Source: a virus. Taken from it: DNA of 27,714 nucleotides. The position numbers and the translations under genes are program-made. Positions 6,700 through 20,627 of this stretch are shown here, piece after piece. Where the stretch lies: the IMG/VR virus record IMGVR_UViG_3300032092_000189, positions 1-27,714 of that record, one strand, 5' to 3'. Under the pieces are notes generated by a model. The model was not told the DNA's origin, searched no databases, and saw nothing but the letters and a program-made list of their open reading frames with translations. The first letter of the stretch is position 1. Every line of letters starts with the position of its first letter.

Positions 6700-6707
6700 T
6701 ATTTATA
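6700..6707 (-). promoter_or_regulatory. Exact T4 late promoter TATAAATA
   Basis: The minus strand reads TATAAATA, a perfect match to the T4 late promoter. It lies 15 bases before the ATG of the 71-aa gene with GGGAG between. It overlaps the stop codon of the upstream oxygenase gene. Confidence 0.65.
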
Positions 6708-7251
6708 AGAAATTTTCTAAATTTCTTGGCCAAATTACCTGACACTGAATTTCCATATTAAGTGCTATTCGATATTCGTCGGTATCTGGCGGGATGGGTT
6801 CGTGTTTTAACCAGCCTGGATAAATTATTAAATCGCCTTCTTTGGGTTTGTACCAAAATCTCAGTTCTTTATTTGAATTGTATATACCTAAACAATTTGC
6901 AATCGGTGACGTTGATGCGGGTATTTTATGATAATAGACTGCATTGATTTCACATGTATGACTGTGATCGTGAATCCCTTGAAAAAATTCATTAGATCGA
7001 CTCACATAAGCCCAAATTTTTCTACGATTATTTTTTTTTATTTCTAAAGGTCCGAGCCATTTAGTTGCATGTTCCAAAAATAGCGTGTACAGATGATCTA
7101 AATCGTTGGTTATAGTATCTTCTAAAGGCAAACTAGCATCACCGGGATGAATATGATACGGGTAAGAAGCATGCCGTTGCAGAATATATTCTGTGATATG
7201 ATTTTGATTTCGACACCAGTCTATTGATGTTAGATATATAGGCAGTTGCAT
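6703..7251 (-). CDS. 2-oxoglutarate/Fe(II) oxygenase-like protein (copy 1)
   Basis: A 182-residue double-stranded beta-helix protein of the small phage 2OG-Fe(II) oxygenase type. The first metal motif is H94-D-H96 followed nine residues later by VYY. The distal part is EGDLIIYPGWLKHEP, with H150 as third ligand and R161 in YRIALNME as the likely 2-oxoglutarate-binding arginine. The position normally Asp/Glu in HxD/E is His here. Members of this superfamily hydroxylate or otherwise oxidise proteins, nucleic acids or small molecules; the substrate is not evident. I place the start at the ATG at 7251, which overlaps the upstream stop as TGATG, rather than at a TTG one codon earlier. It is the last of four consecutive oxygenase genes. 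Confidence 0.72.
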   Translation of the reverse strand: MQLPIYLTSIDWCRNQNHITEYILQRHASYPYHIHPGDASLPLEDTITNDLDHLYTLFLEHATKWLGPLEIKKNNRRKIWAYVSRSNEFFQGIHDHSHTCEINAVYYHKIPASTSPIANCLGIYNSNKELRFWYKPKEGDLIIYPGWLKHEPIPPDTDEYRIALNMEIQCQVIWPRNLENFL

Positions 7252-7853
7252 CAAATAATATCAAAATTGACAATACATCTTCTGTCTTTAGTGGGATTAG
7301 TGCTGGCATGATAAAACTTCCCGTCAAACAGCACGACCCGGCCTTTTTTTGGAGTGACCCTGTGAGTGATCTGGGCTGGCGGAATGAGACTATTAACTTC
7401 ATCTTGACTGAATTGCGGATATGTTGCATTAGTAGTTATAACAGTGTCGCCATCTGCATCATTGACATAATACAAACAGACTAAATGCGGAATGTCAGCA
7501 TCCACGTGCAGTAGATTATATTTTTTTTGAAAAATATCTTGTACGTTAGGAAATGTTAAAAATACTCTTCCCCAATATAGCTCATTAAATTTAAAATTTA
7601 TTTTCTCACAGGCCTGATACATCAAAGGTAGCAGCAGATTAGTTATGGCACTGATCGACCCCGTTTGTTTCTTATAAAACATATGGCCAAACCCATGCGA
7701 ATCGTGTTCCATTTTTTGATCTAGAGGTATTTTTTTAGTAATGCTGGCTGCAAAATACCAAGGAAAATCTGGATTGTATAATGTGTCCTGAGCTATCTTA
7801 TCTTGATAGGTTTCAGAAATAAAGTCATCGATAATAATTATGTCATTGATCAT
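7251..7853 (-). CDS. 2-oxoglutarate/Fe(II) oxygenase (copy 2, canonical HxD...H...R)
   Basis: A 200-residue oxygenase with a complete facial triad: H116-V-D118 followed by IPHLVCLYYVN, then H182 in FDGKFYHAS, and an arginine (R191 or R192) in the strand ending CIVNFDI that should bind the 2-oxoglutarate carboxylate. The GRVVLFDG step before the distal His is typical of prolyl-4-hydroxylase-like phage enzymes. It pairs with copy 4 (8427-8981), which has the same HVD and FDGxxYHAST motifs, so these two look like divergent paralogues. CGGAG lies before the ATG. The stop overlaps the next gene's ATG by one base (TGATG), a sign of translational coupling. Confidence 0.8.
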   Translation of the reverse strand: MINDIIIIDDFISETYQDKIAQDTLYNPDFPWYFAASITKKIPLDQKMEHDSHGFGHMFYKKQTGSISAITNLLLPLMYQACEKINFKFNELYWGRVFLTFPNVQDIFQKKYNLLHVDADIPHLVCLYYVNDADGDTVITTNATYPQFSQDEVNSLIPPAQITHRVTPKKGRVVLFDGKFYHASTNPTKDRRCIVNFDII

Positions 7854-7855
7854 GT

Positions 7856-8425
7856 TTACTCCGTAATCTCTATGTCTGCTGCAATAACGAATCTGTATTT
7901 ACTACTTTGGATGATGCCGGGTCTATGCCAAAGCTCTCCAGGAAATATCACCCAGGCAAATTGTTGAGGTCTGATAAAATATTTATTTTGCCCGTCGACA
8001 CCGTCGGGGGCAAATTCTGTTCCTGCATATTCTAATTGTTTAACATCATCAGGTATATGCAAGTAAAAAATTCCACTCATTTTTTTCTTATATGGATTGT
8101 TGTTATGGTGATGCCAGTACGAGTCTCGATTTTCTTCAGTGTCTAAGTTAGTCATATAACTCCAGGCCATCATCTCTGAAACTTTTACTTCTTTTCCAAG
8201 ATACATGAACACACTGAAAAGAAAACTTAATCGATACTTCAACCAGATTGATTCATCTAACTTGAATAAATTTACGTTTGTTTGATATCTAGGACTGTTG
8301 GTAAAATAGCTGCCTTTGTCAACTAATTCTTCTATTATTTTTATCACAGTTTGATTATCTTCGGCACTAATCATACTGGAGTAATTAAATGTTTTTACAA
8401 TATCATTAGATTCAATGGCGTACAT
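7856..8425 (-). CDS. 2-oxoglutarate/Fe(II) oxygenase-like protein (copy 3)
   Basis: A 189-residue protein with the layout of a small 2OG oxygenase: WHHHNNN (H105-H107), then MSGIFYLHIPDD, a strand FAWVIFPGELWHRPG carrying the distal H167, and R178 in YRFVIAADIE. SGxFYL after the first metal motif and FPxxxWHxP before the arginine place it near the TIGR02466 / 2OG-FeII_Oxy_5 group. As in copy 1, the acidic ligand of HxD/E is replaced by His. It lies three bases upstream of copy 2 and two bases downstream of copy 4 in the same operon. No substrate can be deduced. Confidence 0.72.
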   Translation of the reverse strand: MYAIESNDIVKTFNYSSMISAEDNQTVIKIIEELVDKGSYFTNSPRYQTNVNLFKLDESIWLKYRLSFLFSVFMYLGKEVKVSEMMAWSYMTNLDTEENRDSYWHHHNNNPYKKKMSGIFYLHIPDDVKQLEYAGTEFAPDGVDGQNKYFIRPQQFAWVIFPGELWHRPGIIQSSKYRFVIAADIEITE

Positions 8426-8426
8426 A

Positions 8427-8981
8427 TTATTTTACCTTGAAATTTATATTCATTACTATTCTTTGTTTTTTATCTGTTTGGGTGGTACTGGCATGATATT
8501 GTAATCCATCAAATATCACTACTTTATTTTCTTCGGATTGTACTAGGTGTTGAGTTTTTAAAAAATTATCGTCGGGAAATTTTTGATCATACAATACTGT
8601 TGGACCATTACAGGTTGTAAGATAAAACAAAGCAGTTAGATGAGGGAAGGGATAATCTACATGAGGATTATGAGTATAAGGTCTTGGAGTTTTAGTCATC
8701 ATCCCTAGCCGTATCCTTGTTACTTCTAATGAACCAAGATCAAAACTGCTGCAAATATTCTCAGCCAGTAGTATTGATTTTTCTGTAAGCGGACTGTCTC
8801 CTTGCCCATCCACTGCTACTACATGGCTAAAGGAAAAATCCCATAATTGATGATTGTCTTCAGCCATTCCATATGCAGTGTTTTTACTGTAGAACCAAGG
8901 AAATGCCATATCGCCGTTGAGAAAACCAAACGAATTTTGAAACTCTGTTTTGTTTAAAAAATTTCTTTTCTCTAAAAGCAT
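8427..8981 (-). CDS. 2-oxoglutarate/Fe(II) oxygenase (copy 4, canonical HxD...H...R)
   Basis: A 184-residue enzyme and the first gene of the leftward oxygenase operon. It shows H107-V-D109 followed by FPHLTALFYLT, then VVIFDGLQYHAST with H163 and R174 in QRIVMNIN, that is, the full Fe(II) triad plus the 2-oxoglutarate arginine. The N-terminal region (FPWFYSKNTAYG) parallels FPWYFAASITKK of copy 2, supporting common descent. A late-promoter box lies about 20 bases upstream of the ATG. It is transcribed divergently from the 90-aa gene that begins the rightward oxygenase/radical-SAM operon, across a 71-base gap. Confidence 0.8.
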   Translation of the reverse strand: MLLEKRNFLNKTEFQNSFGFLNGDMAFPWFYSKNTAYGMAEDNHQLWDFSFSHVVAVDGQGDSPLTEKSILLAENICSSFDLGSLEVTRIRLGMMTKTPRPYTHNPHVDYPFPHLTALFYLTTCNGPTVLYDQKFPDDNFLKTQHLVQSEENKVVIFDGLQYHASTTQTDKKQRIVMNINFKVK

Positions 8982-9001
8982 AAACTCTATTTACCCACAT
9001 C

Positions 9002-9008
9002 TATTTAG
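9002..9008 (-). promoter_or_regulatory. Late promoter box for the oxygenase operon
   Basis: The minus strand reads CTAAATA, a common cyanophage variant of the T4 late box, 20 bases before the ATG at 8981. A second GTAAATA lies at 8994-8988 but is too close to the start. The 71-base divergent gap shows no clear late box for the rightward genes. Confidence 0.5.
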
Positions 9009-9052
9009 GGTCACAAATTTTTTACATAATTACAGTATACGAGGATTATAAA

Positions 9053-9325
9053 ATGCTACCGTCTATCGAAAAAAGTTTGAGTTTCCAGAGTGAACTTACC
9101 AAGTTCACAGAGATGCAGAAAAATATCAGCAATCAAGGTCTAAAAAATGAAATCGAAACAATGATCAATAAACTAATTTTTGAAGTGAGAAAGATCGATG
9201 CTCTCCACATGGACCCTAGTACCTTTAAAGAACCCACTGGATTAGACCGGACCAAAGAAAATATTGCACTATTAAGAAAAAAATTAAATAACCTCTGCAA
9301 AGATCACAGTGAGTCAACCAGATAA
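9053..9325 (+). CDS. Small helical protein of unknown function (90 aa)
   Basis: A 90-residue, highly charged protein predicted to be almost entirely helical, probably a helical hairpin or short coiled coil (ELTKFTEMQKNISNQGLKNE, then a second helix ending IALLRKKLNNLC). No enzyme motif or known domain is seen. GAGGA seven bases before the ATG supports the start. It is the first gene of the rightward operon, overlapping the next gene (2OG oxygenase) by 17 bases, so it may be a small partner or chaperone for that enzyme; this is only inference from position. Confidence 0.65.
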   Translation: MLPSIEKSLSFQSELTKFTEMQKNISNQGLKNEIETMINKLIFEVRKIDALHMDPSTFKEPTGLDRTKENIALLRKKLNNLCKDHSESTR

Positions 9326-9950
9326 CATTTATGTGAATACCGTAGAAATGACTAATATACTGCATGCCAAGCAGGTATTAGACGTGTCTCTTTGCCGAGA
9401 AATATCAAGACAAGTGTTAGCTTACAAGTCTCAAAATTCCACTTCAGAAAACACCTCTCCAAACTGTTGGAGAGGTAATCCACATTTATTCGAGACAGGA
9501 CTCACTGATGAGATCAACGAGATTTTACAGGACGTGATTTCTCGTTATCACACTGTTTATGACCAGACTCTAATACGCCCACAGTCGTTTGGTCAGCCCA
9601 CTGATGAAATAAGTAGATATGACATAGATCATCCTGTAATCAGTGCATGGTTCAACGTCAATGGGATCAATGGTGGCAATCCTGTACACACACATTCGGG
9701 AAATTATCTAAGTGGCACGTTATATTTTCAGGCCGCAGATACAGGATATATTGAATTCATGTCTCAGAGTTATCTTTATAAAAGCATGAATTACTGTTGG
9801 CCATATTTTGGATCCGCAAGATATAATCCCAACGACGGCGATCTCTTGATGTTCCCTTCATACCTCGCACACTTTGTAGAGCCTAATCCTGTGTTAAGAC
9901 CTAGAATCAATATGGCGTTTGATATACAGTATCATTTTAAAAATATCTAA
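9309..9950 (+). CDS. 2-oxoglutarate/Fe(II) oxygenase-like protein (copy 5, TIGR02466-like)
   Basis: A 213-residue protein of the TIGR02466 / 2OG-FeII_Oxy_5 type: SAWFNVNGINGGNPVHTHSG, then LSGTLYFQA, NDGDLLMFPSYLAHFVEPN and RPRINMAFDI. Metal ligands would be H127 and H129 (HTH in place of HxD/E) and H188, with R199 for the co-substrate. The family is widespread in marine T4-like phages without a demonstrated substrate. The reading frame opens with GTG at 9309, overlapping the previous gene. No strong ribosome site is visible there or at the later ATG at 9348, so the start is uncertain. Its stop overlaps the radical-SAM start as TAATG. Confidence 0.78.
   Translation: MSQPDNIYVNTVEMTNILHAKQVLDVSLCREISRQVLAYKSQNSTSENTSPNCWRGNPHLFETGLTDEINEILQDVISRYHTVYDQTLIRPQSFGQPTDEISRYDIDHPVISAWFNVNGINGGNPVHTHSGNYLSGTLYFQAADTGYIEFMSQSYLYKSMNYCWPYFGSARYNPNDGDLLMFPSYLAHFVEPNPVLRPRINMAFDIQYHFKNI
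9453..9476 (+). other. Perfect intragenic RNA hairpin
   Basis: ACCTCTCCAA-ACTG-TTGGAGAGGT is a perfect 10-bp stem with a four-base loop inside the fifth oxygenase gene, about 145 bases after its start. The 3' arm contains the SD-like GGAGAGG, hidden in the stem. It is far from a T-tract, so it is not a classic terminator. Confidence 0.45.
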
Positions 9951-11368
9951 TGTTCAAAGGTTTATTTTTCAATCAGTGCGGCAAAGGACCAACTGTTAGA
10001 TCTCCGGGAGCTCATAGAATAGCTTCATGGCTCCGGATGAATAATTGGGACATAGAAGTTTTAGATTTTTTACCGTTTTGGTCGATAGAAGAATTAAAAG
10101 AGTTTTGTATTTCTAGAATAGATCATCAAACTAAGTTTGTGGCATTTAGTTATATGTTTTTTACTCCCCAGGTTAATAATTTTCCTGTTGAATTATTAAT
10201 ATGGATTAAAGAACATTATCCGCAACTTAAAATTATCGTAGGAAGTCAAGAAAAATATCTTCACGGCCACGAATATGTAGACTACATTATTTCGGGGTAC
10301 GGAGAGTTTGCTATTTTAGAACTTCTACAGTATCTATTTTCCAACGGCGATCGTCCTAAGTTTGCTTTAGAAAATCCGTTTTTTAAATTTATCAATGCAA
10401 ACAAACTTTATCCTGCATACCCTATGAAAAATCTGTCTATCTTATACGAGAACAGAGACTATCTTTCTGCAGACGAGTGGTTGGGAATTGAATTCTCACG
10501 AGGCTGTATGTTTAAATGCGATTTTTGTAATTATCCCATCCTAGGTGTAAAAGGTGATTATACAAGAGATGCTGACGATTTTAGCAATCAAATCACTGAC
10601 ACATATGAAAGATTCGGAATATCAAACTATGTAGTAGCCGACGAAACGTTTAACGATCGGACAGACAAAATAACAAAGTTTGCGGATGTAGTTGAAACTT
10701 TAAATTTCTCTCCTTTTTTCCAAGGATTTTTAAGAGCAGATCTTTTAGTCAGCAGACCAACAGATCGAGAAGAACTATTAAGAATGAATTTTTTAGCTCA
10801 GTTTTATGGTATAGAAACATTTAATCATCAATCCGGTAAAGCTATTAAAAAAGCCATGCATCCCGACAAACTAAAAGACGGATTGATAGATATTAAAAAA
10901 TATTTTCATACTCACGGCAGTAAAAAATATAGAGGATTTATAAGTTTAATTTTTGGATTACCATATGAAACTTTGGAATCGTTAAACACAACAAAAAATT
11001 GGTTAATAGATAATTGGCAGGGAGAATCATTTGGTGGTGCTCCTTTAGAAATTAGACTATCCAGCGAGAACAGTTCTCTTATATCAGATAATTATGAAAA
11101 GTACGGATATAGGAAAATGATTGATGATAAGAATTTTCCAGGTCTTGTTTGGGAAAATGAGTTCATGAATATTATGCAGGCTCGACAGATATCTCAAGAA
11201 TTTCAAAATCTATACAATAATCAACAATACGATTTTAGGGTATATGCTCACTGGCTACCTGACACACAAAATATAGATTTATTTAAAAATCAAGTAGATG
11301 TCGCAGATCGACTTCGCATATTAGATAGGATCACAATCTACAAGAACAACAAATTATCAACAAATTAA
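9950..11368 (+). CDS. Radical SAM protein with N-terminal B12-binding-like domain
   Basis: A 472-residue protein. The first 130 residues look like a cobalamin-binding Rossmann domain (VEVLDF-like start, KIIVGSQEKYLHG, then DYIISGYGEFAILELLQYL), but no DxHxxG motif is visible, so B12 binding may be lost or base-off binding absent. The radical SAM core begins GIEFSRGCMFKCDFCNYP, with C186, C190 and C193 in the CX3CX2C arrangement that binds the 4Fe-4S cluster and S-adenosylmethionine. ADETFND (about 229-235) and GIETFNHQSGK fit later barrel strands. Such enzymes methylate or rearrange unreactive carbons. It is the last gene of the operon with the fifth oxygenase (TAATG overlap) and abuts the convergent fibre gene with no spacer. 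Its codons are visibly AT-rich compared with the fibre genes. Confidence 0.8.
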   Translation: MFKGLFFNQCGKGPTVRSPGAHRIASWLRMNNWDIEVLDFLPFWSIEELKEFCISRIDHQTKFVAFSYMFFTPQVNNFPVELLIWIKEHYPQLKIIVGSQEKYLHGHEYVDYIISGYGEFAILELLQYLFSNGDRPKFALENPFFKFINANKLYPAYPMKNLSILYENRDYLSADEWLGIEFSRGCMFKCDFCNYPILGVKGDYTRDADDFSNQITDTYERFGISNYVVADETFNDRTDKITKFADVVETLNFSPFFQGFLRADLLVSRPTDREELLRMNFLAQFYGIETFNHQSGKAIKKAMHPDKLKDGLIDIKKYFHTHGSKKYRGFISLIFGLPYETLESLNTTKNWLIDNWQGESFGGAPLEIRLSSENSSLISDNYEKYGYRKMIDDKNFPGLVWENEFMNIMQARQISQEFQNLYNNQQYDFRVYAHWLPDTQNIDLFKNQVDVADRLRILDRITIYKNNKLSTN

Positions 11369-14182
11369 TTATATTGCTGCTATGTCTTTAATTACGATGT
11401 TACCTTGCATTAATGCATGTGATGAACATTGATATCGATATGTTCCTGATATGTTAGCAGGAATTTTCCAATACAGCGTACCAAATATCTTTCCTTGTGC
11501 GGCTGCACCAGTACTTACAACTCCATTATAAAATACATGCACTAATCCGGTGCTGTAATTTGTGCCACCACTGTTTTGAATTAAAAATGGGTGGCCGTTG
11601 ACGTTGAGATTAAAGGCTATGGTTGTTCCGGATATTGCATATATAGTAGGATTGGCTCCAGTATACTGTCCGTCAGTGTCGAAATAATAAATCTGTCCAA
11701 TGTTTGTTACGTGCAGTCTAGTAATGGCTTGAAAGGCTACCTTGTCGATGGTCATGCCGTCACCTAGATATATCCAGGCACCAATGCTAGATAAATCAGC
11801 CCAGTTCATATCAGTAGCCACTCCTACTGTTACAGTATCATTGGCAGCATCATGAGTCATCGAGATGAATCTTCCGGCATCAATTCTTAACGTATCTGTT
11901 GTGGTGTCTGCGACATAATCTGTACCGTTGAAATTCACAGTTGAAAATACGTTTTGAGGAATATTTGGACTGCTGTTAGTGACCGTGATAGTATCTGTGG
12001 AATCATTTGTAGTGATAGCTACCCCGGTGCCTGCAACTAGTGTAAGTGTATCTGTGGCAGAATCCGCTACAACACTGGATTGTCCAGCCACTGCAATAGT
12101 CTGAAAGGCCTGTGTTGTGTCGCTGCCTGTGATGGTTATATTACCTTCAGCGTCCGACGAAGTTGTTATACCCGTGCCGCCTATAAATTTAATACTCTCA
12201 TCTTCACTCACAGTTATGATTGTAGAATCGTCTGCTGCCACAAAGAATTGTGTGCGTTTTCTAGTACTTTCGTATATAGGTGATTCGCCATTCACTGATA
12301 TGCTACCAGTAACCGAAAGTCTAGTACCATTCCAAGATAACCCTGTAGTTCCTTCTACAACATTGCCAGTCTGGAAGTAATAGGCCAATTCATATTGACT
12401 AGCTGTACTTACACCGCTGCTGCCTGCCGTGGCTGCTATAGAGCCGCCGCTGACATATGCTGTAAATCCTGCAGTACCGTTTACTGTAGTAGTCAATCCT
12501 GTGTCGCTGTATAATCTAATCTGTGTCGAAGTTACAACGTCCGCAAAATAACTATTACCATTTAATTCTGTAGTGCCTACTACATCAGTAATAGTAATCT
12601 GTTGACCATTGCTAAGATTGTGGGCTGCTGTTGTTGCGATTACTATGGGATTGTTTAAAGTAATAGATTGTACTGATGAAGACCCGCCTACGTTTGCTCC
12701 AATGGTAATAGTATCTGTTCCAGGAGATGTGGATATAGTTATATTAGGTCCAGCTACCAGTGTTACTGTATCTGCTTCGTTGTCTGCAACAACACTGCTC
12801 TGTCCAGCTACCGCCATGGTTGTAAACGCTGCGGTCACGTTGCTGGTTGTTGTCAGGGTCAATGTGTTAGCTGATGTAGTAACGTTGATCCCGCTGCCTA
12901 CGATAGTAAGAACATCTTGTGCGCTATCTGCCTCTATATCAGTTTGACCAGCCACACGCACAGTAGAAAAAGTATTCAACGTAGAAGCTATGGTCACCGT
13001 GTCAGTTCCAGCATTGGTAGTGATTGTAATTCCTGTACTGGCAGCTAATGTCAGGGTATCTGTAGCAGAATCAGCTGCCACACTAGATTGACCTGCTACT
13101 GCTATTGTAGCAAATCCGTTAGGTACACTAACCCAAGAAAGTGTTCCAGATCCGTTGGTTTGTAAATATTGATTGGCCGAGCCGTCGGTACCCGGAAATG
13201 TAAATGCTGGAAATGAAGTGGTTTTAGTTTCACCATCCAACACCCAATTGTTGCCAGCACCCAGGTCCGCTACAAAATAACCAAAATTACTAGCGGCTTT
13301 TCTTTCTACGTAGGAGAAAAATTCGTTGTTGTAATTTAATTGCACATAGTCAACTGTGGTCGGAGCATATAAATCTACTCCGTTAAATGCAAATGCCGGC
13401 TCCTGTCCTTGTACGTTGCCGATCCTTCCACCGGTAGGTATTGTAATAGTGCCGTCATCTTCTAGCACCACTTCTAGATTTCCGTTGACTAATCTGTCAC
13501 CTGTGCCCGATCCTGATCCCGTTCCTGGATCGGATGTTGCAATAGAATTGCCCATTGCAAGATGTTGATAACACCAGTAATACAAAGTACTAGGAGTTAA
13601 ACTAGTCACTTGTATTTCTACTGTTCTAGAAGTTGCGGTATCAAAGGCCACACTGTTATACACAGCATATGTAACGGGACTTCCACTTAACTTATAAATC
13701 ACATTGGTGGTATAAGCAGTGCCGCCACCAACTACTCCGCTGAGATTGTCTGCTGAAAAATTTAATGGATGCCTATTTTGGGTAGTTCCGTTAGCGTTGG
13801 GATAGTAAACATTGGTCAAATCTGTTTGATTGAAAATATAAGTATAACCTACAACCAAGGATAACGCTGGTTTATAAACACCATCGATTCTGTATTTGTT
13901 TCCGGTGTCAGGGTTTACTGGTCCGGCTATTGTGACTGTATAGCTAACTGTAGCTACGTTTGCTTCTGTAACTTTAGATTTGATTGCGGTAGTTGAAACA
14001 TTGGCTAGATCGGATCTGGCGATCTCTATGCCGCCTTGTGTGGCTCCGTCAAATACCTTTAAGGTATAGTGTGTGGGATCCACATAAATTTCACCTGATA
14101 GACCTGTTTTTCTATCTAATATTTCAGGATCTTCTGTAAGAATCCTAATGCTTTTAAAGATAGGTCTGTTATTATAGCTCAT
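11369..14182 (-). CDS. Long fibre/structural protein with two cupredoxin-like domains and beta repeats
   Basis: A 937-residue virion-type protein. The N-terminal part (SGEIYVDPTHYTLKVFDG) is a fibre-attachment-like start. Residues about 80-215 form a cupredoxin-like domain with H138 (NRHPLNF) and C204, H207, M210 in YYWCYQHLAMG. About 350-505 holds three repeats of the VAGQSSVVADSATDTLTL type. Next comes an FCCH-like beta module (about 510-590, HNLSNGQQITITDVVG). After two more such repeats comes a C-terminal cupredoxin-like domain with H864 and C919, H922, M925 in YQCSSHALMQGN. The C-x2-H-x2-M spacing equals that of amicyanin. Tail or capsid-fibre location is inferred from the repeats and the neighbours. 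AGAGGAAC before the ATG and an upstream late box support the start. Confidence 0.7.
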   Translation of the reverse strand: MSYNNRPIFKSIRILTEDPEILDRKTGLSGEIYVDPTHYTLKVFDGATQGGIEIARSDLANVSTTAIKSKVTEANVATVSYTVTIAGPVNPDTGNKYRIDGVYKPALSLVVGYTYIFNQTDLTNVYYPNANGTTQNRHPLNFSADNLSGVVGGGTAYTTNVIYKLSGSPVTYAVYNSVAFDTATSRTVEIQVTSLTPSTLYYWCYQHLAMGNSIATSDPGTGSGSGTGDRLVNGNLEVVLEDDGTITIPTGGRIGNVQGQEPAFAFNGVDLYAPTTVDYVQLNYNNEFFSYVERKAASNFGYFVADLGAGNNWVLDGETKTTSFPAFTFPGTDGSANQYLQTNGSGTLSWVSVPNGFATIAVAGQSSVAADSATDTLTLAASTGITITTNAGTDTVTIASTLNTFSTVRVAGQTDIEADSAQDVLTIVGSGINVTTSANTLTLTTTSNVTAAFTTMAVAGQSSVVADNEADTVTLVAGPNITISTSPGTDTITIGANVGGSSSVQSITLNNPIVIATTAAHNLSNGQQITITDVVGTTELNGNSYFADVVTSTQIRLYSDTGLTTTVNGTAGFTAYVSGGSIAATAGSSGVSTASQYELAYYFQTGNVVEGTTGLSWNGTRLSVTGSISVNGESPIYESTRKRTQFFVAADDSTIITVSEDESIKFIGGTGITTSSDAEGNITITGSDTTQAFQTIAVAGQSSVVADSATDTLTLVAGTGVAITTNDSTDTITVTNSSPNIPQNVFSTVNFNGTDYVADTTTDTLRIDAGRFISMTHDAANDTVTVGVATDMNWADLSSIGAWIYLGDGMTIDKVAFQAITRLHVTNIGQIYYFDTDGQYTGANPTIYAISGTTIAFNLNVNGHPFLIQNSGGTNYSTGLVHVFYNGVVSTGAAAQGKIFGTLYWKIPANISGTYRYQCSSHALMQGNIVIKDIAAI
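11815..12106 (-). repeat. Two beta-repeat units in the fibre gene (units 4-5)
   Basis: Two tandem units of about 48 residues each (AFQTIAVAGQSSVVADSATD and VFSTVNFNGTDYVADTTTD) continue the series found at 12690-13118. Unit 5 is the most diverged. Boundaries are approximate. They probably form successive beta layers of a trimeric fibre shaft. Confidence 0.65.
12690..13118 (-). repeat. Three tandem beta-repeat units in the fibre gene (units 1-3)
   Basis: Three tandem units of about 47 residues begin FATIAVAGQSSVAADSATD, TFSTVRVAGQTDIEADSAQD and AFTTMAVAGQSSVVADNEAD, each ending in a TDT(V/I)TI-type strand. The repeat is also visible at DNA level as recurring blocks for VAGQSSV. Coordinates are approximate. 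Confidence 0.7.
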
Positions 14183-14200
14183 AATGTTCCTCTAGTCTTG

Positions 14201-14208
14201 TATTTATC
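14201..14208 (-). promoter_or_regulatory. Late promoter box for the 937-aa fibre gene
   Basis: The minus strand reads GATAAATA, seven of eight matches to the T4 late consensus, 18 bases before the fibre-gene ATG, with AGAGGAAC as ribosome site in between. Confidence 0.6.
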
Positions 14209-14221
14209 ACTGTTTTTTAAA

Positions 14222-14229
14222 AATAAATA
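14222..14229 (+). promoter_or_regulatory. Late promoter box for the 72-aa gene
   Basis: The plus strand reads AATAAATA, 20 bases before the ATG at 14250, followed by a strong AGGAGG at 14234-14239. Together with the box at 14201-14208 it makes a compact divergent late-promoter pair. Confidence 0.6.
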
Positions 14230-14249
14230 TATCAGGAGGCACACTAATT

Positions 14250-14468
14250 ATGAATTGGATACAGGAAAGATTCGGCAGCCAGGCTGAAACTTTAGTTAAA
14301 AATATCAAGAACAAAGTAGTAGTTTCCGAAGAAGAACACAAACAAAGACTGGATGTTTGTAGAAGCTGTGAAAATTACAGCGATCTACACATGTGCAAAG
14401 AATGCCACTGCTATATGCCATTAAAAACTAAATTCGCTATTTTTACCTGCCCAATAAAGAAATGGTAA
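14250..14468 (+). CDS. Small Cys-rich zinc-ribbon-like protein
   Basis: A 72-residue protein with six cysteines in the pattern C37-x2-C40, C49-x2-C52-x-C54 and C67-P, ending CPIKKW. The arrangement CRSCE...CKECxCYMPLKTK...CPIxKW is a recurrent small family in marine T4-like phages and probably binds one or two zinc ions. The N-terminal half is helical and charged. It has its own strong ribosome site (AGGAGG) and late box, so it is likely well expressed. The gene ends exactly where the convergent oxygenase gene ends. The 94-aa product of 18749-19033 shares the same cysteine pattern and C-P-x2-KW. Function unknown. Confidence 0.75.
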   Translation: MNWIQERFGSQAETLVKNIKNKVVVSEEEHKQRLDVCRSCENYSDLHMCKECHCYMPLKTKFAIFTCPIKKW

Positions 14469-15047
14469 TCACAGTATCAAGGGCATTAATTGATAATCTA
14501 AGGGATGATCTTCGCCTATAAAATTATAGGCTAAGTCAAATCCAACTGTGATTCTAGGTGATGAAAAATTGTTTGTTTTTGTTGTAACTACTCGATGTAA
14601 TTTTTTGCCTAATCCTATATAAATTTGACCAGGTCTGTTTGTAATAGCATATTCCTTAAATTCAGTCACAGTATCTTTAGGATCTATAGATATATATCCA
14701 TGCATGGGCCAATGATGAGTGTGCCAATCGAGGATTTGTTCACTTCTGTGTATATTGATCCAACTCTCCATCCATACTGGAGTATTCCAAGTTCGTTGTT
14801 GTTTAATAACTTCTACGAGATCCTTGAACAACATATACCATGCTGGGGAGGGACTAGTCAGTAGCCATATATTATAGGACTGATAACTCCAAGTTAAATC
14901 TCGATCTTTGAGTGGACCAAACCTAGCTTCGAATAGTTGTTCTGCTCGTAATGATGCATCAATTATTTCATCATGATGATTTGTTATTACATCACTGTTC
15001 CAAATCTGATAATTAAATTCTTTATTATTTTCAAGAAGCGTGATCAT
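14469..15047 (-). CDS. 2-oxoglutarate/Fe(II) oxygenase-like protein (copy 6)
   Basis: A 192-residue oxygenase-like protein that ends the halogenase operon. Motifs: ILDWHTHHWPMHGYISID (H109-T-H111), RPGQIYIGLGKKLHRV (H151) and SPRITVGFDL (R165). This is the layout of the small phage 2OG oxygenases, again with His in place of the acidic ligand. I take the ATG at 15047 as start; a TTG two codons earlier is open but less likely. It overlaps the upstream 170-aa gene by 17 bases. Its nearest resemblance in the window is to copy 5 (HTH and the R-I strand). Placed next to the halogenase, it could act on the same substrate. Confidence 0.7.
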   Translation of the reverse strand: MITLLENNKEFNYQIWNSDVITNHHDEIIDASLRAEQLFEARFGPLKDRDLTWSYQSYNIWLLTSPSPAWYMLFKDLVEVIKQQRTWNTPVWMESWINIHRSEQILDWHTHHWPMHGYISIDPKDTVTEFKEYAITNRPGQIYIGLGKKLHRVVTTKTNNFSSPRITVGFDLAYNFIGEDHPLDYQLMPLIL

Positions 15048-15543
15048 AATCAATTAGCTTACTGATAATTTTCTTGTTTACAAAATCTAATCTTATGTTA
15101 TCATCTATTTGATACACATCTTTTTCGTTTAAAAATATTTTTTCTGTTGAAAACGAATGCCTATTAGTCATAATATTTCCTGTGATAGAAAATCCCCAAC
15201 CTTCATCGTCATTGTTTATATGAATATTCACAAGCTCGCTATTTCCGTTTAGATCCTTGGTAGGGAATATTTTTTCTACGGTTTTAGGCCTAGAATAATA
15301 TATAAAAACTTCTGACACAATGCACAGTATAAAACTATCAGGAAATTTTGTTAATAAATCTTGTATAGAGTCAACGTGGATGTTTGCTAACGATTTATAA
15401 ATGTATGGTGGGTTGTCTTTCTGAAAAATTATAAAAGCGTGGCCAGCAATTTTCCATGGACTGGTTAATTTTCTTTTTTGCTCTAAGATCCATCTTTCCA
15501 AATGCTCTTGATCGAAAGATCCAATTATTCTAAAGGTATCCAT
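15031..15543 (-). CDS. Unknown protein (170 aa) in the halogenase operon
   Basis: A 170-residue soluble protein that I do not recognise. It begins MDTFRIIGSFDQEHLERWIL, has an alternating alpha/beta pattern with aromatic-rich strands (ILCIVSEVFIYYSR near 92-105), and an acidic C-terminal half with WGFSITG. No signal peptide, membrane segment, Cys cluster or catalytic motif is evident. It starts four bases after the halogenase stop and overlaps the oxygenase by 17 bases, so it is made from the same message as both and could be an adaptor or substrate-binding partner; that is inference. Confidence 0.65.
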   Translation of the reverse strand: MDTFRIIGSFDQEHLERWILEQKRKLTSPWKIAGHAFIIFQKDNPPYIYKSLANIHVDSIQDLLTKFPDSFILCIVSEVFIYYSRPKTVEKIFPTKDLNGNSELVNIHINNDDEGWGFSITGNIMTNRHSFSTEKIFLNEKDVYQIDDNIRLDFVNKKIISKLIDYDHAS

Positions 15544-15547
15544 GGTG

Positions 15548-17074
15548 TTATCTATCTTTTCCTGTATACGATTTTTCTAAATAGTCAGCGTGATTAGGAA
15601 ATATTTTTAAACATTGATCTATTCTAAATTTATGCGAATCCCACATCATCTTTCCGTATTTTTTAACTGGCTCTTCACATGTGTACTGATCAATAAATTG
15701 GTCGTATGCACCAAAAGCATACAACAAAGAAAACCATTGTCCGGGATGAAACATCGTGTATATCCCAGGGTTAATAATTTTATCAGGAGGTTGTGGTATA
15801 AAATGATTCAAAGCTGTCCTGGTAGATGCAGGAGGTTGTACCATTTTTGCTGCTTTCCAGAAATCAGTATCATCCTTTGTGGACATCAAATAGTGTATTA
15901 GTACAAAATCCACAATTTCTCTCACCATGAGGTTATAATTGTCGCTGAGCATCAAGGCTGAATCGTCGTTGTAAGCACCACCATTTTGTAAAATCACTTC
16001 AGTTAATGCTTGTATACCTTTGGTAGTAAATGTAATGCCTGTGGCTTCTAAGGGTTCTACAAATGCTGCTGCAAGTCCAGTGGCGTAAACATTCTTTACA
16101 GCTATGTTTTTATGAGTTCCTGTTTTCATCTTTATATGATTAGCCGGGGCAGACCATTCATCTAATACAGATCTTAGATATAGTTCAGCATCTTCTGGGC
16201 TGATAAATTTATCACAGTATACATAACCGTTTCCTATTCTGTTAAAGGTAGGAATAGTCCATCGCCAGCCACAGGGTTCCGCAATGGCTTTGGTATACGG
16301 ATGCATTTCCGTTGTTTTATTTTTATATTCCGTTGGGATAGCAACTGCTCTATTACACAATAATATATCTTCAAACGATATAAACGGTTCTTTTAATGTT
16401 TGTTCCAGCAACAAAGATTTAAATCCAGTACAGTCTATGTATAAATCTGCATGTAACAATCCGTTTTCTTTAGACATTAACCCAGTTATTCCAGTTTCGT
16501 CTGAAAATACTTCTAGTATTTCATCATCATAATGTTTTATTTTTCTTTTACATTTCTTTTTTAGTGCTTCAACAAGTGCGTCTGCTCTAAAATGTACGGC
16601 ATCCCAAGTGAAATCATGCATACCTAGATTGAAATCTAATTTATGATCGTCCAGTTTAGTAGATTTATTGGCCTTGGCAAATCTGTATGCAGGTAGCCAA
16701 TCATTGTATTCTTTTTTAGTGATCTTTTGAGATAGTATGTATTTTGCTAAAAACGTATCTCTACCTAAAACTGCGGTGGCTACTGTGTCGTTGTCAACAA
16801 ACGCAGGTTCGTCAGCCCATCCAGTTAACTCAACACCTAATTTAAGTGTGGCTTCTGCAAGAGACATCCAATCTTCTGGTTGTAACCCGCATTCTAATAA
16901 AAATGCTGTGGTGTATGGCTGGGTACCTTCGCCCACGCCTATGGTTCCTATCGTTGTTGATTCAACCAATGATATCTTAACTGCCGGAGGCAAATTATTA
17001 CTAAGATGAGCAGCAGCCATCCAACCTGCCGAACCTCCTCCTACAATAATAATGTTATTGATAATTCTGTTCAT
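15548..17074 (-). CDS. Flavin-dependent (tryptophan-type) halogenase
   Basis: A 508-residue FAD-dependent halogenase, normal length for the family. GGGSAGW (residues 12-18) is the FAD-binding GxGxxG with the family Trp. ATLKLG supplies K78, matching the catalytic Lys79 of PrnA/RebH that forms the haloamine or guides HOX. GWRWTIP (269-275) is the signature WxWxIP, which blocks monooxygenase activity. FVEPLEATGI contains E340 and E343, one matching the conserved catalytic Glu. The enzyme uses FADH2, O2 and halide to halogenate an electron-rich substrate. I start at the ATG at 17074, which has GGAG five bases upstream and overlaps the previous stop as ATGA; a further upstream start lacks support. 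All key residues are intact, so it is likely active. VirX1 from cyanophage Syn10 is a known viral precedent. Confidence 0.88.
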   Translation of the reverse strand: MNRIINNIIIVGGGSAGWMAAAHLSNNLPPAVKISLVESTTIGTIGVGEGTQPYTTAFLLECGLQPEDWMSLAEATLKLGVELTGWADEPAFVDNDTVATAVLGRDTFLAKYILSQKITKKEYNDWLPAYRFAKANKSTKLDDHKLDFNLGMHDFTWDAVHFRADALVEALKKKCKRKIKHYDDEILEVFSDETGITGLMSKENGLLHADLYIDCTGFKSLLLEQTLKEPFISFEDILLCNRAVAIPTEYKNKTTEMHPYTKAIAEPCGWRWTIPTFNRIGNGYVYCDKFISPEDAELYLRSVLDEWSAPANHIKMKTGTHKNIAVKNVYATGLAAAFVEPLEATGITFTTKGIQALTEVILQNGGAYNDDSALMLSDNYNLMVREIVDFVLIHYLMSTKDDTDFWKAAKMVQPPASTRTALNHFIPQPPDKIINPGIYTMFHPGQWFSLLYAFGAYDQFIDQYTCEEPVKKYGKMMWDSHKFRIDQCLKIFPNHADYLEKSYTGKDR

Positions 17075-18765
17075 TTTTTCTCCAATACATATATTCCTAA
17101 TCCGTTCCAATAATCGTTTGGATCTTCACCGGTGGTAAAAATCTCTTTCTCAAAAATAACTTTTAAGTCTAGTCCGCTTATACATTTTTTTGTTCCGTGG
17201 GCGACTTGAATCCAATTCCAATCATCTACTATAAAAATAAAAATATCATCACAAACGTCTATTACTTTTGTTAAAAACATTTCGTGACTTTCTAAAGAAT
17301 GATCACCGTCATAAAAGACTATTGATGCTTTGAATGGTAAGTCGGTTTGTTTTACTTCATCAATATTTTTATCTATGATTTTAAAATTTTTATTTCCTGT
17401 TTTTGAAATATTTTGATATAGTAAAGATTTAGTAGGTCCTGGTACAGATACCCATTCTTCCATGTCTCTCATTGGCTTGATGCCGTCGTTTTCAAAATTA
17501 TCTATACCTACGCAAAATGCATGCTCATTCTTATATAGTGCCGAAGAAAAAATTGCACCTTGATAAACTCCTACTTCTAAATATCGAGAATCTTGCATTT
17601 CTAAAAGATTATTCAACAAGTGCTTAACTTTGTTTGATGTTAATCCGTTTATTTCAAGTATTTCTTCACTTAATTTAGATTCTAAGTTTTCAGACTTTCT
17701 AAGAGATTCGTTTATTTTTTCTATAAATCTATTTTTGGATTTGCTTATCACTACTTGATTACAATAATTACAATCCCAGCAATCAAATTTACATGTTTTT
17801 ATTTTTTTCCGCCATGCATTTATCGGTGATCCTTCTATGGCCATATCGTCGACGTATGATTCAAAACCGTCAAACAATATTTCTTTATCTTGGGCAAAAT
17901 TTTCTATGATTTTCATAGTTTCAAACATTCTGGGTGTATGTTCTCTACCATGCATTTTAAAAACATCTATGCCCAACTCATTGACAAATTCTAACCAATC
18001 TTTTTTCCAGGGTGGGAAATCTGCTTTCTTTAATGATTGTCCTGGATCATCGCGGTCCCATGCTGGACACGTGACTTTTGACAACGGTGTCATGAAATAA
18101 GTAGGATGTTTGCCTTCTATTCTAGTATTGTTATATTGAAAATGTTCGTCTTGAACAGAACAATTCCCCCAACAGCCTTCGTTGGCTAACAAAGATACAG
18201 TTATTTCTCGCCCATACTTTTCTATACAGTATTCTTTGGCCTTCTTGATTTCTAACAAACTTTCTCGATCTCTCATCAAATCTCTATCAAGATTTATATA
18301 ACTAAATCCTGCTTCGACTAATTTAACTAGTTCGTTGGCTCGTTGCACATTCCTTAGAATAGTATTTTTTACAAATAATTCCGGATATTCTTTCTGTATT
18401 CTTCCGGACAACATCCAGATAGTATGTGGCAGTGTAACTGTTCGTATTCCTTGATCGTATAGAGGTCTGAAATATTTTATCCATGTCTCCAAGAATTCTT
18501 GTGTGGGCGGAACCTCTATATTATTAAATGTTGCTGAGAGCGGTATACCTAGATCTGTTTGTAAAATCAAAGCATTATTGATCAAGTCAATGGCTTGTTT
18601 ACTGTCAAATACATCTCCCATTGCATCAGTTACAAATGGTGGAATTCTACAGGTAAAATATATATCGTAGATATACTCTTTGTGTGTGCTACAAAAATCG
18701 TAAAATTGTTTAAATTCTTGTTCAGATAATTTAGGATTCAGTGGGATACTAAATATTTTCATCAT
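17071..18765 (-). CDS. Fusion of a U32-like TIM-barrel protein with a class I methyltransferase
   Basis: A 564-residue two-part protein. Residues 1-335 look like a peptidase-U32/UbiU-like barrel: strand ATFNNIEVP (78-86), GFSYINLDRDL (153-163), VSLLANEGCWGNC (190-202) and FKMHGREH (269-276), then a cluster C325, C329, C332, C335. C198, C202 and C233 with that cluster could hold a 4Fe-4S centre as in UbiU/UbiV. Residues about 390-564 are a SAM methyltransferase of the Methyltransf_24 kind: motif I LEVGVYQGA (396-404), VGIDN (419-423), and VFYDGDHS (483-490). U32-like proteins hydroxylate, cleave or modify RNA or quinone precursors. Two starts, 18765 and 18762, are adjacent. It is translationally coupled to the halogenase (ATGA), suggesting joint action. 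Confidence 0.65.
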   Translation of the reverse strand: MMKIFSIPLNPKLSEQEFKQFYDFCSTHKEYIYDIYFTCRIPPFVTDAMGDVFDSKQAIDLINNALILQTDLGIPLSATFNNIEVPPTQEFLETWIKYFRPLYDQGIRTVTLPHTIWMLSGRIQKEYPELFVKNTILRNVQRANELVKLVEAGFSYINLDRDLMRDRESLLEIKKAKEYCIEKYGREITVSLLANEGCWGNCSVQDEHFQYNNTRIEGKHPTYFMTPLSKVTCPAWDRDDPGQSLKKADFPPWKKDWLEFVNELGIDVFKMHGREHTPRMFETMKIIENFAQDKEILFDGFESYVDDMAIEGSPINAWRKKIKTCKFDCWDCNYCNQVVISKSKNRFIEKINESLRKSENLESKLSEEILEINGLTSNKVKHLLNNLLEMQDSRYLEVGVYQGAIFSSALYKNEHAFCVGIDNFENDGIKPMRDMEEWVSVPGPTKSLLYQNISKTGNKNFKIIDKNIDEVKQTDLPFKASIVFYDGDHSLESHEMFLTKVIDVCDDIFIFIVDDWNWIQVAHGTKKCISGLDLKVIFEKEIFTTGEDPNDYWNGLGIYVLEKK

Positions 18766-19033
18766 TTTCCTTTAGTGTTTTTTCCCAATCAGACCAAACA
18801 GGCCACTTATTCAACGGACATCTTTGCTTGTTTCGATCGCCGGACATCATGTAGCTAGAACATGCACATTCTCCACAGTGTGCCCTAAAAAACACACGAT
18901 TTGGCGATTCGTCGTCAGCTGCACTTAAGAAACAATGCTCACAGTTGTAACAAATCTCAACCCGGTGCAGTCTAAATTCCCAATCACCTAATATGTAACC
19001 TGGCGGTGGCGGGGTTGTAGGTAATTTTTTCAT
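18749..19033 (-). CDS. Small Cys-rich protein related to the 72-aa zinc-ribbon-like protein
   Basis: A 94-residue protein with cysteines C28, C31, C34, C53, C56, C58 and C72. The order CYNCEHC...CGECACS...CPLNKW repeats the CxxC / CxxCxC / CPxxKW pattern of the 14250-14468 product, but with a longer middle and a Pro-rich N-terminus (TTPPPPGY). It probably binds zinc. It overlaps the upstream coiled-coil gene by 50 bases and the fusion gene by 17 bases, an unusually dense packing that still leaves AGGA upstream of its ATG. Function unknown; a zinc or Fe-S carrier role in the operon is only a guess. Confidence 0.65.
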   Translation of the reverse strand: MKKLPTTPPPPGYILGDWEFRLHRVEICYNCEHCFLSAADDESPNRVFFRAHCGECACSSYMMSGDRNKQRCPLNKWPVWSDWEKTLKENDENI

Positions 19034-19874
19034 TAATCTGTGTCCTGTTTGTCTCTAACTGCTGTGTGGACAATGTACTTTTTCCTCCGTAGGTTCCAAC
19101 TACACCGGTGATATCTGGCAGTTGATAAGGCTGTCTATTCTCAGGAGTCGTTGTCAATACGTGCCTTACTGCTTCTCCTAGTTCGGAAATACCGTGTTCC
19201 ATACGTTGGGTCTGCAACATCGCATACGAAATTACTTTTTGTTGCGCTTCGAGTGGCATGCCTATGATGGAATCAATATTCCCGGACTGAATTTTTCCTG
19301 AAAGCATCACATCATACATCGCTTGTTTACCAAATCTTTTGATCCAGTATTCTTCTTCTTTTTCTTCCCAATTGTCCTTGTAATTTTTAATCGTTTCTAA
19401 CGTGTTTTCAGGAGCTATCTCTTTTGCTATTTCTAAAAAATTATTGATTTCGTAATTACTTTGCTCTTGCAATAATTTAGTCTGCGCTACATCAAAACCT
19501 ATCTTTTTAATTTCTAATTCCATTAGCTCTTTTTCTAACTCATCTTCTTCTAGTTCAAGTGCCCTTTGTATTTTTCTTACTTCTATTTCGGCTTTTTTAA
19601 TTTTATAGGTACTGTCGGCTAGTCCTAGAATCCTAGCTTTGATTTCTAGGCCTACTTGTTGTAGTTTCCTATGATCTGTAACTTCTGTGTTTATAACAAA
19701 AGATCTAGATTGAAAAATTGAATAAGGGGTGATTACAGACGATAAAAATTTCACTATGTCGGCATCTTCTTTAGAGGTGACTTTTAAATCTAACAGATTT
19801 TCATAATCAATGTTAAATTCTTCTGGCGCTTGTGATCTCTTTATTCTATCTAAAGGTACAATGTGACTAGGCAT
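18984..19874 (-). CDS. Coiled-coil protein of unknown function (296 aa)
   Basis: A 296-residue protein. Residues about 90-150 form a long charged coiled coil (KIKKAEIEVRKIQRALELEE and following), flanked by globular parts: N-terminal FNIDYENLLDLKV and a C-terminal region with KQAMYDVMLSGKIQ and VISYAMLQTQRMEHG. No enzymatic motif is seen. It is the first gene of the operon that carries the fusion protein and halogenase, but it could equally be a structural or chaperone protein of the tail-fibre region that the enzymes were inserted behind. A good ribosome site (ACGGAGAAACT) precedes the ATG, and a late box lies upstream. Confidence 0.65.
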   Translation of the reverse strand: MPSHIVPLDRIKRSQAPEEFNIDYENLLDLKVTSKEDADIVKFLSSVITPYSIFQSRSFVINTEVTDHRKLQQVGLEIKARILGLADSTYKIKKAEIEVRKIQRALELEEDELEKELMELEIKKIGFDVAQTKLLQEQSNYEINNFLEIAKEIAPENTLETIKNYKDNWEEKEEEYWIKRFGKQAMYDVMLSGKIQSGNIDSIIGMPLEAQQKVISYAMLQTQRMEHGISELGEAVRHVLTTTPENRQPYQLPDITGVVGTYGGKSTLSTQQLETNRTQINEKITYNPATARLHIR

Positions 19875-19885
19875 AGTTTCTCCGT

Positions 19886-19918
19886 AAAAAAATATCTTGT
19901 TTGTTAGACAAGATATTT
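19886..19918 (-). terminator. Intrinsic terminator between fibre operon and halogenase operon
   Basis: The minus strand carries an 11-bp perfect stem, AAATATCTTGT / ACAAGATATTT, with a seven-base loop (CTAACAA), running into a T-tract at its 3' side (TTTTTTT on the minus strand). This is a clear rho-independent terminator for leftward transcripts from the tail-fibre genes. A late-promoter box overlaps its upstream arm. Confidence 0.75.
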
Positions 19919-19940: not shown

Positions 19941-20627
19941 TTAGATTCTGACTACAAAGTCGCCATGTCTACTTGTACCGAATTGTGGATATTTGGCTAT
20001 TCCAAATTTAAGGTCGGCTATTTCAGCTGCTTCTTCTATCGTAGAGCAAGCGTCAATATCTCTGATATGTCTTTGTTGTCGGCCTAGGAGATTTCCAACA
20101 TTTGCATGATAGTCTGCGGCACTTCTTTTGATTTTATCTGCTAAAACAGAAACAGTAATTCCCCGTGCCTTGGCAATTTCTTCAATAAGGGTACCGCTTC
20201 CTTGTTCGGCTTCTTTCAATTGTTGAGGCCATGTGCTCATTTCAAAAGCGTTTATGTGTGTTTGAAGCTCTAGATAACGTTGGTAAAAAATATCTTCAAC
20301 ACGCACACGCATCACTGTTTTCATGTATTCTAATACTCCGGCAGCTTCTTCTTCAGTATATGGTCTTGTGATCTTTAACGGATCTTTAAGCTGATATTTT
20401 GAAGCATATATTTCGCCTGTGTCTCTATCTTGATATCCTCTGAATTCGGGGCGACCAAAATAATTGTACCAACGGGCAACATCTTCCGGAATTATCCTAG
20501 GACGACCTTGTTCCCAGTTTATCCAATCGAGATTGCTGACCTGGACCAGCGTGAAACCTGCGAAATTGTCTATGACTGTGTGTCTTGGATCTACTGATTC
20601 GTGATATTTTTTATAGATTACGTACAT
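19941..20627 (-). CDS. Tail fibre assembly-like protein (DUF4376-type C-terminal region)
   Basis: A 228-residue protein. The first 110 residues (YHESVDPRHTVIDNFAGF, DWINWEQGRPRIIPEDVA) are a phage-specific N-domain. Residues about 125-190, with FEMSTWPQQLKEAE, LIEEIAKARGITVSVLADKI and YHANVGNLLGRQQ, match the helical region shared by tail-fibre-assembly proteins and DUF4376 (WPxQxxEA, ARG, LA.KI, Y.a.vG.llG). Such proteins help fold or attach fibres. It lies immediately downstream of the fibre genes, where a chaperone is expected, eight bases after the 497-aa gene. AAGGAAAATC precedes the ATG. The terminator follows. Confidence 0.62.
   Translation of the reverse strand: MYVIYKKYHESVDPRHTVIDNFAGFTLVQVSNLDWINWEQGRPRIIPEDVARWYNYFGRPEFRGYQDRDTGEIYASKYQLKDPLKITRPYTEEEAAGVLEYMKTVMRVRVEDIFYQRYLELQTHINAFEMSTWPQQLKEAEQGSGTLIEEIAKARGITVSVLADKIKRSAADYHANVGNLLGRQQRHIRDIDACSTIEEAAEIADLKFGIAKYPQFGTSRHGDFVVRI

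Follow-up and report, generated by a model that had tools for sequence, protein, structure and literature searches.

What does a flavin-dependent halogenase modify when a phage carries it? Aquatic phages commonly encode such enzymes, among them the well-studied biocatalyst VirX1; to our knowledge, no viral flavin halogenase has an established natural substrate. The question arises for IMG/VR record IMGVR_UViG_3300032092_000189, a 27,714-base fragment of an uncultured T4-related phage, the whole of which we refer to as the window. An initial annotation had drawn a cassette at positions 6703 to 18765, comprising six oxygenase-like genes, a radical S-adenosylmethionine (SAM) protein, the halogenase, and a fusion of a U32-like domain to a methyltransferase, and had read these many tailoring chemistries as one pathway. 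That span was drawn wrongly. It mixes a conserved core with loose accessories, and the key gene, which encodes a fiber or adhesin protein with a predicted propeller domain (orf497), lies outside it at positions 20636 to 22129. The conserved core consists of orf497, two partner genes (orf228 and orf296), the U32-like/O-methyltransferase fusion, and the flavin halogenase (Table 1). We read the region most readily as a locus for host recognition, where a fiber with a propeller tip travels together with tailoring enzymes of its own and optional extra oxygenases. We assign a probability of about 0.5 to the proposal that the fusion and the halogenase act on the fiber tip or adhesin protein.

The fusion co-occurs tightly with the propeller. 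An AlphaFold2 model of the C-terminal domain of orf497 (predicted local distance difference test score [pLDDT], 82; predicted template modeling score, 0.81) matched six-bladed kelch propellers from the PDB in a Foldseek search, with template modeling (TM) scores of 0.76 to 0.77, and the best viral match was the "Sericin 1-like protein" of cyanophage S-RIM12 (TM score, 0.78). Among 80 IMG/VR loci containing the U32 fusion, 45 had at least 4.5 kb of upstream sequence and could be tested for this gene. An orf497-type propeller gene was present upstream of the fusion, on the same strand, in 42 of the 45, usually about 2 to 4.5 kb away. Neither 67 fusion-free halogenase loci nor 80 loci of the gp13 neck gene contained the orf497 propeller domain, both sets being stretches of limited length.

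The backbone of the window is, as judged from its neck and tail proteins, T4-related and jumbo-phage-like. Its gp13 and gp15 homologs are closest to those of jumbo myophages (PA5oct group, Phosso, Atu_ph07, and XaC1), at approximately 30 to 45% identity, and contigs bearing close gp13 relatives reach 353 kb. None of the INPHARED records matched the window at the DNA level. Given the jumbo-like neck proteins and this lack of a matching genome, we rejected a marine cyanophage identity; the earlier description of the phage as marine is unsupported, and a literature search on the sample habitat turned up no paper that mentions either of two IMG accessions. The T4-GC 351-354 run of the cyanophages Syn33 (Syn33_042-045) and P-HM2 (P-HM2_098-101) nevertheless resembles the window in encoding a sericin-like propeller fiber, GC352, GC353, and a U32 fusion, the last 45% identical to that of the window. 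Unlike the window, these phages have no halogenase and have a Kyanoviridae/Eurybiavirus backbone, and the function of GC351-354 is listed as hypothetical. Because the propeller-GC352-GC353-fusion order is shared, the module is found on two very different phage backbones.

The prediction of a flavin halogenase with intact catalytic residues was confirmed by the PF04820 match and by conserved motifs: GxGxxG, the catalytic Lys, GWxWxIP, and FVEPLE are all present. In a 13-sequence alignment, K77, W269, P274, E339, and E342 (aligned-fragment numbering) are invariant and W271 is nearly so. The start codon of the halogenase (ATG at 17074-17072) and the fusion stop codon share a 4-nucleotide overlap (ATGA at 17074-17071). 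A tree built from 144 halogenase sequences places the window in a clade of 25 rows with a Shimodaira-Hasegawa-like approximate likelihood ratio test value of 100. Twenty-two of these rows had enough upstream sequence to be tested, and in 21 the U32 fusion lies directly before the halogenase, either overlapping it or one gene apart; the exception is the outermost row. All four members of a second, separate halogenase clade adjoin a stand-alone U32-like gene without a methyltransferase domain. U32 adjacency requires 2 changes on the tree, versus 22.6 with shuffled labels; the tree came from a quick search and has some long branches, and the U32-like gene of the second clade is distantly related to that of the fusion. 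On this phylogenetic evidence, the fusion and the halogenase are an adjacent, stable pair. In the second clade, an S74-chaperone fiber gene and three genes for glycine-rich tip adhesins (PF21722, phrog_863) are followed by genes for a phrog_1787 protein, the U32-like protein, an HxD oxygenase, and the halogenase. The same enzyme pairing is therefore found behind two unrelated fiber-tip architectures.

Propeller genes are repeated at some loci. Two or three tandem copies precede the U32 fusion in L185 (L185:5618-8766), L188, and L159. At least two copies were present in 8 of 16 halogenase-bearing loci versus 3 of 36 without a halogenase (Fisher P = 0.0016), a difference that is confounded by phylogeny and serves as a lead only.

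The Syn9/Syn10 cassette, which contains VirX1 (PDB 6QGM), resembles the window in having flavin halogenases of the same Pfam family, followed by a run of oxygenases, beside fiber genes. CPUG_00131, likely the VirX1 gene, comes after a gp35-gp40 run and adjoins a second halogenase gene, and the syn9 counterpart of this stretch contains genes annotated as tail fiber and fiber assembly. Unlike the window, the syn9 genome has no U32 fusion, and the cassette has a halogenase of another clade on another backbone. VirX1 takes bulky substrates (PMC8407142). Against PDB sequences, the window halogenase scored highest with PyrH-type 2wet (244 bits), compared with 199 bits for VirX1 (6qgm). Both the tree and these scores led us to reject the idea that it is simply VirX1-like.

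The second enzyme of the pair, predicted earlier to be a U32-like/methyltransferase fusion at 17071-18765, was borne out by phrog_1458 and by its predicted fold. Its U32 assignment, which with oxyF is the least secure of the enzyme calls, has no direct Pfam support, as PF01136, the Pfam U32 model, gave no match to the window fusion. An AlphaFold2 model (pLDDT, 88.6) contains an N-terminal U32-like TIM barrel and a C-terminal O-methyltransferase domain. Foldseek matched the barrel to the U32 peptidase Mk0906 (5d88; E value, 9.6e-7; TM score on the target, 0.59) and the C-terminal half to 8gxo, 6jcl, 5x7f, MycF, and COMT, which have the Rossmann O-methyltransferase fold; the latter half also matched PF13578 weakly. 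A sequence search of the PDB with the fusion returned nothing useful. L290, which was picked up by a profile of the U32-like part, passes PF01136 (28.4 bits; cutoff, 22.4) and is, at the level of sequence, a bridge from that part to the U32 family. Seven cysteines are invariant across 37 aligned fusion sequences.

Known U32 proteins suggest a chemistry for the fusion. UbiU and UbiV are U32 proteins with 4Fe-4S clusters that function as O2-independent hydroxylases (PMC6747719). Prephenate-dependent tRNA hydroxylation needs the U32 protein TrhP, and Bacillus subtilis O-methylates the product (TrmR, mo5U34) (PMC6599085). Because of these precedents, it is reasonable to propose by analogy that the fusion hydroxylates its substrate and then methylates it. 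The fusion is like UbiU/UbiV, TrhP, and RlhA in having a U32-like barrel with conserved Cys, and TrhP-type hydroxylation is likewise followed by methylation. It differs from them in its Cys spacing, in its attached methyltransferase, and in falling below PF01136 detection; the RNA and quinone substrates of those enzymes are not indicated for it.

Across 84,980 bacterial and archaeal genomes, we detected five relatives. Two of them, L273 and L274, look like phage DNA binned in metagenome-assembled genomes (MAGs), because the same orf228/orf296 partners are present. In the MAG contig L276 (L276:1-4352), the U32-like gene is flanked by the end of an RTX-repeat protein gene and by a C39-type type I exporter gene, and in L277/L291 (MAG; L291:1-6510) it is followed by TolC-, ABC-, and HlyD-type genes. 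L288, a hit from a phylum search, has a U32-like gene in the vicinity of genes for a SecA-like protein and a PF04820 halogenase and is a possible export-linked protein modification cluster. These three bacterial contexts all appear to indicate surface proteins that are exported, and in one of them the pairing with a halogenase recurs. In the two sampled phyla, only 5 of the 792 genomes contained a match to the U32-like profile. At L288:286-8860, from the same phylum as a Campylobacteraceae MAG, genes for the SecA-like protein, the flavin halogenase, two APH-type kinases, the U32-like protein, and SelO lie close together.

The initial annotation had placed T4-type late-promoter boxes upstream of two of three tightly packed operons around the long fiber gene. 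The exact TATAAATA box occurs once in the window, which is not above chance, and strict TATAAATA promoters were rejected as not enriched. The ATAAATA core occurs seven times, six of them directly upstream of same-strand gene starts (gp13, TM346, orf71, fib937, orf72, and orf296); the box upstream of orf296 is CATAAATA at 19914-19921. Thus, ATAAATA boxes precede the orf296-to-halogenase operon and the fiber gene, and neither the oxyD-A nor the orf90-oxyE-radical SAM operon has one. Because boxes precede the operon from orf296 to the halogenase and the fiber gene, late expression of the core genes is plausible. Adjacent genes are translationally coupled at oxyA/oxyB (7251-7254), oxyE/radical SAM (9950), and orf170/oxyF (15031-15053), as well as at the fusion/halogenase junction.

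We favor a fiber or adhesin substrate because of the propeller linkage, the stable fusion/halogenase pair, the second pairing behind tip adhesins, the bacterial export contexts, the U32 precedents for hydroxylation followed by methylation, and the bulky substrates and fiber-side setting of VirX1. The enzymes had been suggested to modify a virion/fiber protein or a host metabolite; the former fits best for the core and does not extend to all nine enzymes. We infer the following scheme, at whose center is a mobile fiber-tip module in which the orf497 adhesin and its partners orf228 and orf296 are joined by a pair of dedicated tailoring enzymes. The U32-like domain would act late in infection, hydroxylating one residue in the tip or adhesin through iron-sulfur chemistry that needs no O2. 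The fused methyltransferase would O-methylate the new hydroxyl, and the flavin halogenase would halogenate an aromatic side chain. Neighboring oxygenases, plus the radical SAM protein in the window strain, might contribute further marks that are specific to the strain. Modified in this way, the tip would differ in how it binds receptors or in its stability, with a corresponding effect on host recognition.

The repeatedly assembled link among U32-like protein, halogenase, and tip adhesin names a candidate halogenase substrate. If the scheme is correct, phage host recognition would gain an enzymatic chemical layer that is invisible in the fiber sequence. This would be relevant to host range prediction and to the understanding of modified bacterial adhesins. 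We offer a broader generalization only tentatively: phages may use dedicated sets of a U32-like hydroxylase (often fused to an O-methyltransferase) and a flavin halogenase to add hydroxyl, methyl, and halogen groups to the tip adhesins that they themselves encode, and bacteria may apply related sets to exported surface adhesins. Phage receptor-binding proteins would then be post-translationally halogenated proteins, and some viral halogenases, at least, would have their natural function here.

Several observations weigh against a fiber substrate. The loci were collected by sequence similarity, so many of them are kin; they reduce to a diverse set of 38 nonredundant fusions (75% identity) and 50 propeller domains (80% identity). 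Gene adjacency could reflect cotransfer in a hypervariable locus. The cysteine pattern of the fusion, CX3C...C...CX3CX2CX2C, is not the CX6CX15CX3/4C of most U32 families, and the bacterial evidence consists of three MAG contigs. We considered whether propellers encoded beside a halogenase are enriched in aromatic residues and rejected the idea, as their aromatic content was no different from that of propellers at halogenase-free loci. Finally, the PDB relatives of the halogenase are mainly small-molecule enzymes, acting chiefly on free tryptophan.

The last point bears on the alternative that survives best, which we nonetheless regard as unlikely: a secondary-metabolite or capsule decoration cluster, which during infection would produce or modify a halogenated small molecule or a sugar of the host surface. 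Not only is the window halogenase closest to free-tryptophan halogenases, but such a role has been proposed for a cluster in the jumbo cyanophage S-SSM6a, where a halogenase, 2-oxoglutarate (2OG) oxygenases, and O-methyltransferases occur together, as in the window (PMC7824862). That cluster, read as a metabolite/capsule system, differs in containing carbamoyl transferases and phosphatases, none of which was identified in the window. In addition, Pfam and PHROG scans of the genes in this 27.7-kb fragment revealed no scaffold-building enzyme, the fusion comes after a fiber-tip gene rather than sugar or amino acid genes, and the bacterial U32-like relatives adjoin protein exporters.

Table 1. 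Positions of the core, accessory, and backbone marker genes in the window
Feature	Position	Strand	Basis and remarks
orf497, fiber/adhesin, proposed substrate	20636..22129	-	C-terminal part (residues ~210-490) a predicted six-bladed kelch propeller; phrog_1417
orf228, conserved partner	19941..20627	-	phrog_1604; homolog in 29/80 U32-fusion loci; also in Syn33 and P-HM2
orf296, conserved partner, charged, probably coiled-coil	18984..19874	-	phrog_1409; homolog in 76/80 U32-fusion loci; late-type box upstream
U32-like/class I O-methyltransferase fusion	17071..18765	-	phrog_1458 (2e-176); seven invariant Cys; predicted fold
Flavin-dependent (tryptophan-type) halogenase	15548..17110	-	PF04820 (3e-93)
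orf94, small Cys-rich protein	18749..19033	-	Homolog in 5/80 U32-fusion loci
orf170, conserved in window's subclade	15031..15543	-	Homolog in 5/80 U32-fusion loci
oxyA	6703..7254	-	PF13759 above Pfam cutoff; HxH-type
oxyB	7251..7853	-	PF13640/PF13759 below cutoff; phrog_274; HxD-type
oxyC	7856..8425	-	PF13640/PF13759 below cutoff; weaker PHROG match (2e-8); HxH-type
oxyD	8427..8981	-	PF13640/PF13759 below cutoff; phrog_274; HxD-type
oxyE	9309..9950	+	PF13759 above Pfam cutoff; HxH-type
oxyF, oxygenase-like	14469..15053	-	phrog_2696 (5e-35), weakly phrog_81; matches no Pfam family; HxH-type
Radical SAM protein, putative degenerate B12-binding-like N terminus	9950..11368	+	PF04055 (4.8e-8; 33.8 bits; cutoff, 29.5)
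fib937, fiber/baseplate-wedge connector-like	11369..14182	-	phrog_677, phrog_708; box GATAAATAC at 14200-14208
gp13-like neck protein (backbone marker)	1148..1906	-	phrog_211; nearest isolates PA5oct group, Phosso, Atu_ph07, XaC1
gp15-like tail sheath stabilizer (backbone marker)	3331..4938	+	phrog_11196; nearest isolates PA5oct group, Phosso

The remaining enzymes of the proposed pathway behave differently from the core. All six genes described as 2OG/Fe(II) oxygenase-like are present as open reading frames (ORFs), and only oxyB and oxyD, which have strong PHROG family matches, encode the canonical HxD...H arrangement. In their family (phrog_274), HxD is found in 101 of 102 aligned sequences, the remaining row being gapped, and the distal H and R are conserved in 100%; oxyB and oxyD are thus canonical-looking 2OG/Fe(II) oxygenases (HxD...H...R). 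The PHROGs label of phrog_274, "DNA endonuclease V" (denV), which also appears in several cyanophage records, looks like a propagated error. In oxyA, oxyC, oxyE, and oxyF, HxH replaces HxD, as it does in 151 of 153 PF13759-type rows and 21 of 21 oxyF-type rows, with the distal H and R retained. This substitution suggests a three-His metal site or noncanonical chemistry, and these four proteins, missing the usual carboxylate ligand, may not be ordinary 2OG hydroxylases.

The radical SAM assignment was upheld by PF04055, and the CX3CX2C motif is present as CMFKCDFC. The match to a B12-binding domain (PF02310 at 0.025) fell below the cutoff, as did those to the NCBIfam B12-radical SAM models. The protein had no tblastn match among INPHARED phages and one distant relative in IMG/VR (29% identity), in a search limited to close relatives. 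Two relatives of the window itself are informative. L006 is approximately 99.6% identical to it over its 16 kb, and L008, the closest distinct relative, is approximately 92 to 96% identical across the greater part of the region. All that is left of the radical SAM gene in L008, after an in-frame deletion, are the start and last codons. An internal in-frame cut in oxyF leaves the first 34 and last 23 residues; an extra PF13759-type oxygenase gene (L008:18551-19246), which has no counterpart in the window, follows oxyA. The deletions are recent losses that left remnants rather than a missing insertion. Because of these deletions, the extra oxygenase, and the scarcity of radical SAM relatives, the radical SAM protein and at least some oxygenases appear to be exchangeable accessories. 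We therefore rejected a single nine-enzyme pathway: a near relative lacks two of its members and carries another oxygenase, INPHARED phages have no match to the radical SAM protein, and four of the oxygenases lack HxD.

Co-occurrence in related phages had been proposed as a check on the whole set. It was found for oxygenases around halogenases and for the fusion/halogenase pair behind a fiber tip, while the accessories turn over. Forty-six oxygenase genes lie within 6 kb of 21 halogenase loci versus 15.5 expected (circular shifts in 17 cyanophage and pelagiphage genomes; P of about 5e-5); near-identical records were partly removed, and the genomes are still related, so this P value is optimistic. 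Genes scattered individually, with no co-occurrence, were not seen for the core and were partly seen for the accessories. The fiber locus might alternatively be viewed as a recombination hot spot that gathers unrelated moron genes, with co-occurrence reflecting linkage and not function. The accessory turnover between near relatives and the variable content among gp13 loci fit this view, and the halogenase and the fusion never occur together in 22 isolate genomes (four of which were selected because they have the fusion and all others because they have the halogenase). We consider it improbable: the fusion/halogenase order and overlap are kept across a divergent clade, and a U32/halogenase pairing recurs in another phage clade and once in a bacterial MAG.

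Least probable is a remodeling of the host surface, in which host adhesins, S-layer, or lipopolysaccharide (LPS) would be altered late against superinfection or readsorption and the fiber linkage would reflect shared host specificity; this has been proposed for glycosyltransferases in a comparable pelagimyophage host recognition cluster (PMC7029224) and agrees with the surface protein export genes beside the bacterial U32-like relatives, but it leaves the close tracking of one propeller domain by the fusion unexplained. The pelagimyophage cluster is like the window in being a hypervariable island of fiber and enzyme genes between fiber and neck genes, with radical SAM cassettes; it differs in being noted for glycosyltransferases and LPS genes, and the text of that paper names no halogenase (PMC7029224). 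Viral halogenases, their oxygenase neighbors, halogenase-oxygenase cassettes beside cyanophage fibers, and the fiber-adjacent island are already known. The open-license full texts that we searched do not describe the propeller/U32-fusion/halogenase module, the second pairing, the bacterial export contexts, or the two-layer structure of core and accessories.

Other genes of the window can be described briefly. A role of orf228 in fiber assembly is a guess. Two small Cys-rich proteins, encoded at 14250-14468 (DUF6171, PF19668) and 18749-19033, both have a CP-x-x-KW motif near the C terminus. An HNH-endonuclease-like ORF at 161-499 adjoins a deoxynucleoside monophosphate kinase gene, and L046 and L052 have similar ORFs after the kinase gene. 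A DUF401 (PF04165) transporter-like membrane protein is encoded at 5342-6382, between the tail genes and the oxygenases, and has homologs in 15 of the 80 U32-fusion loci.

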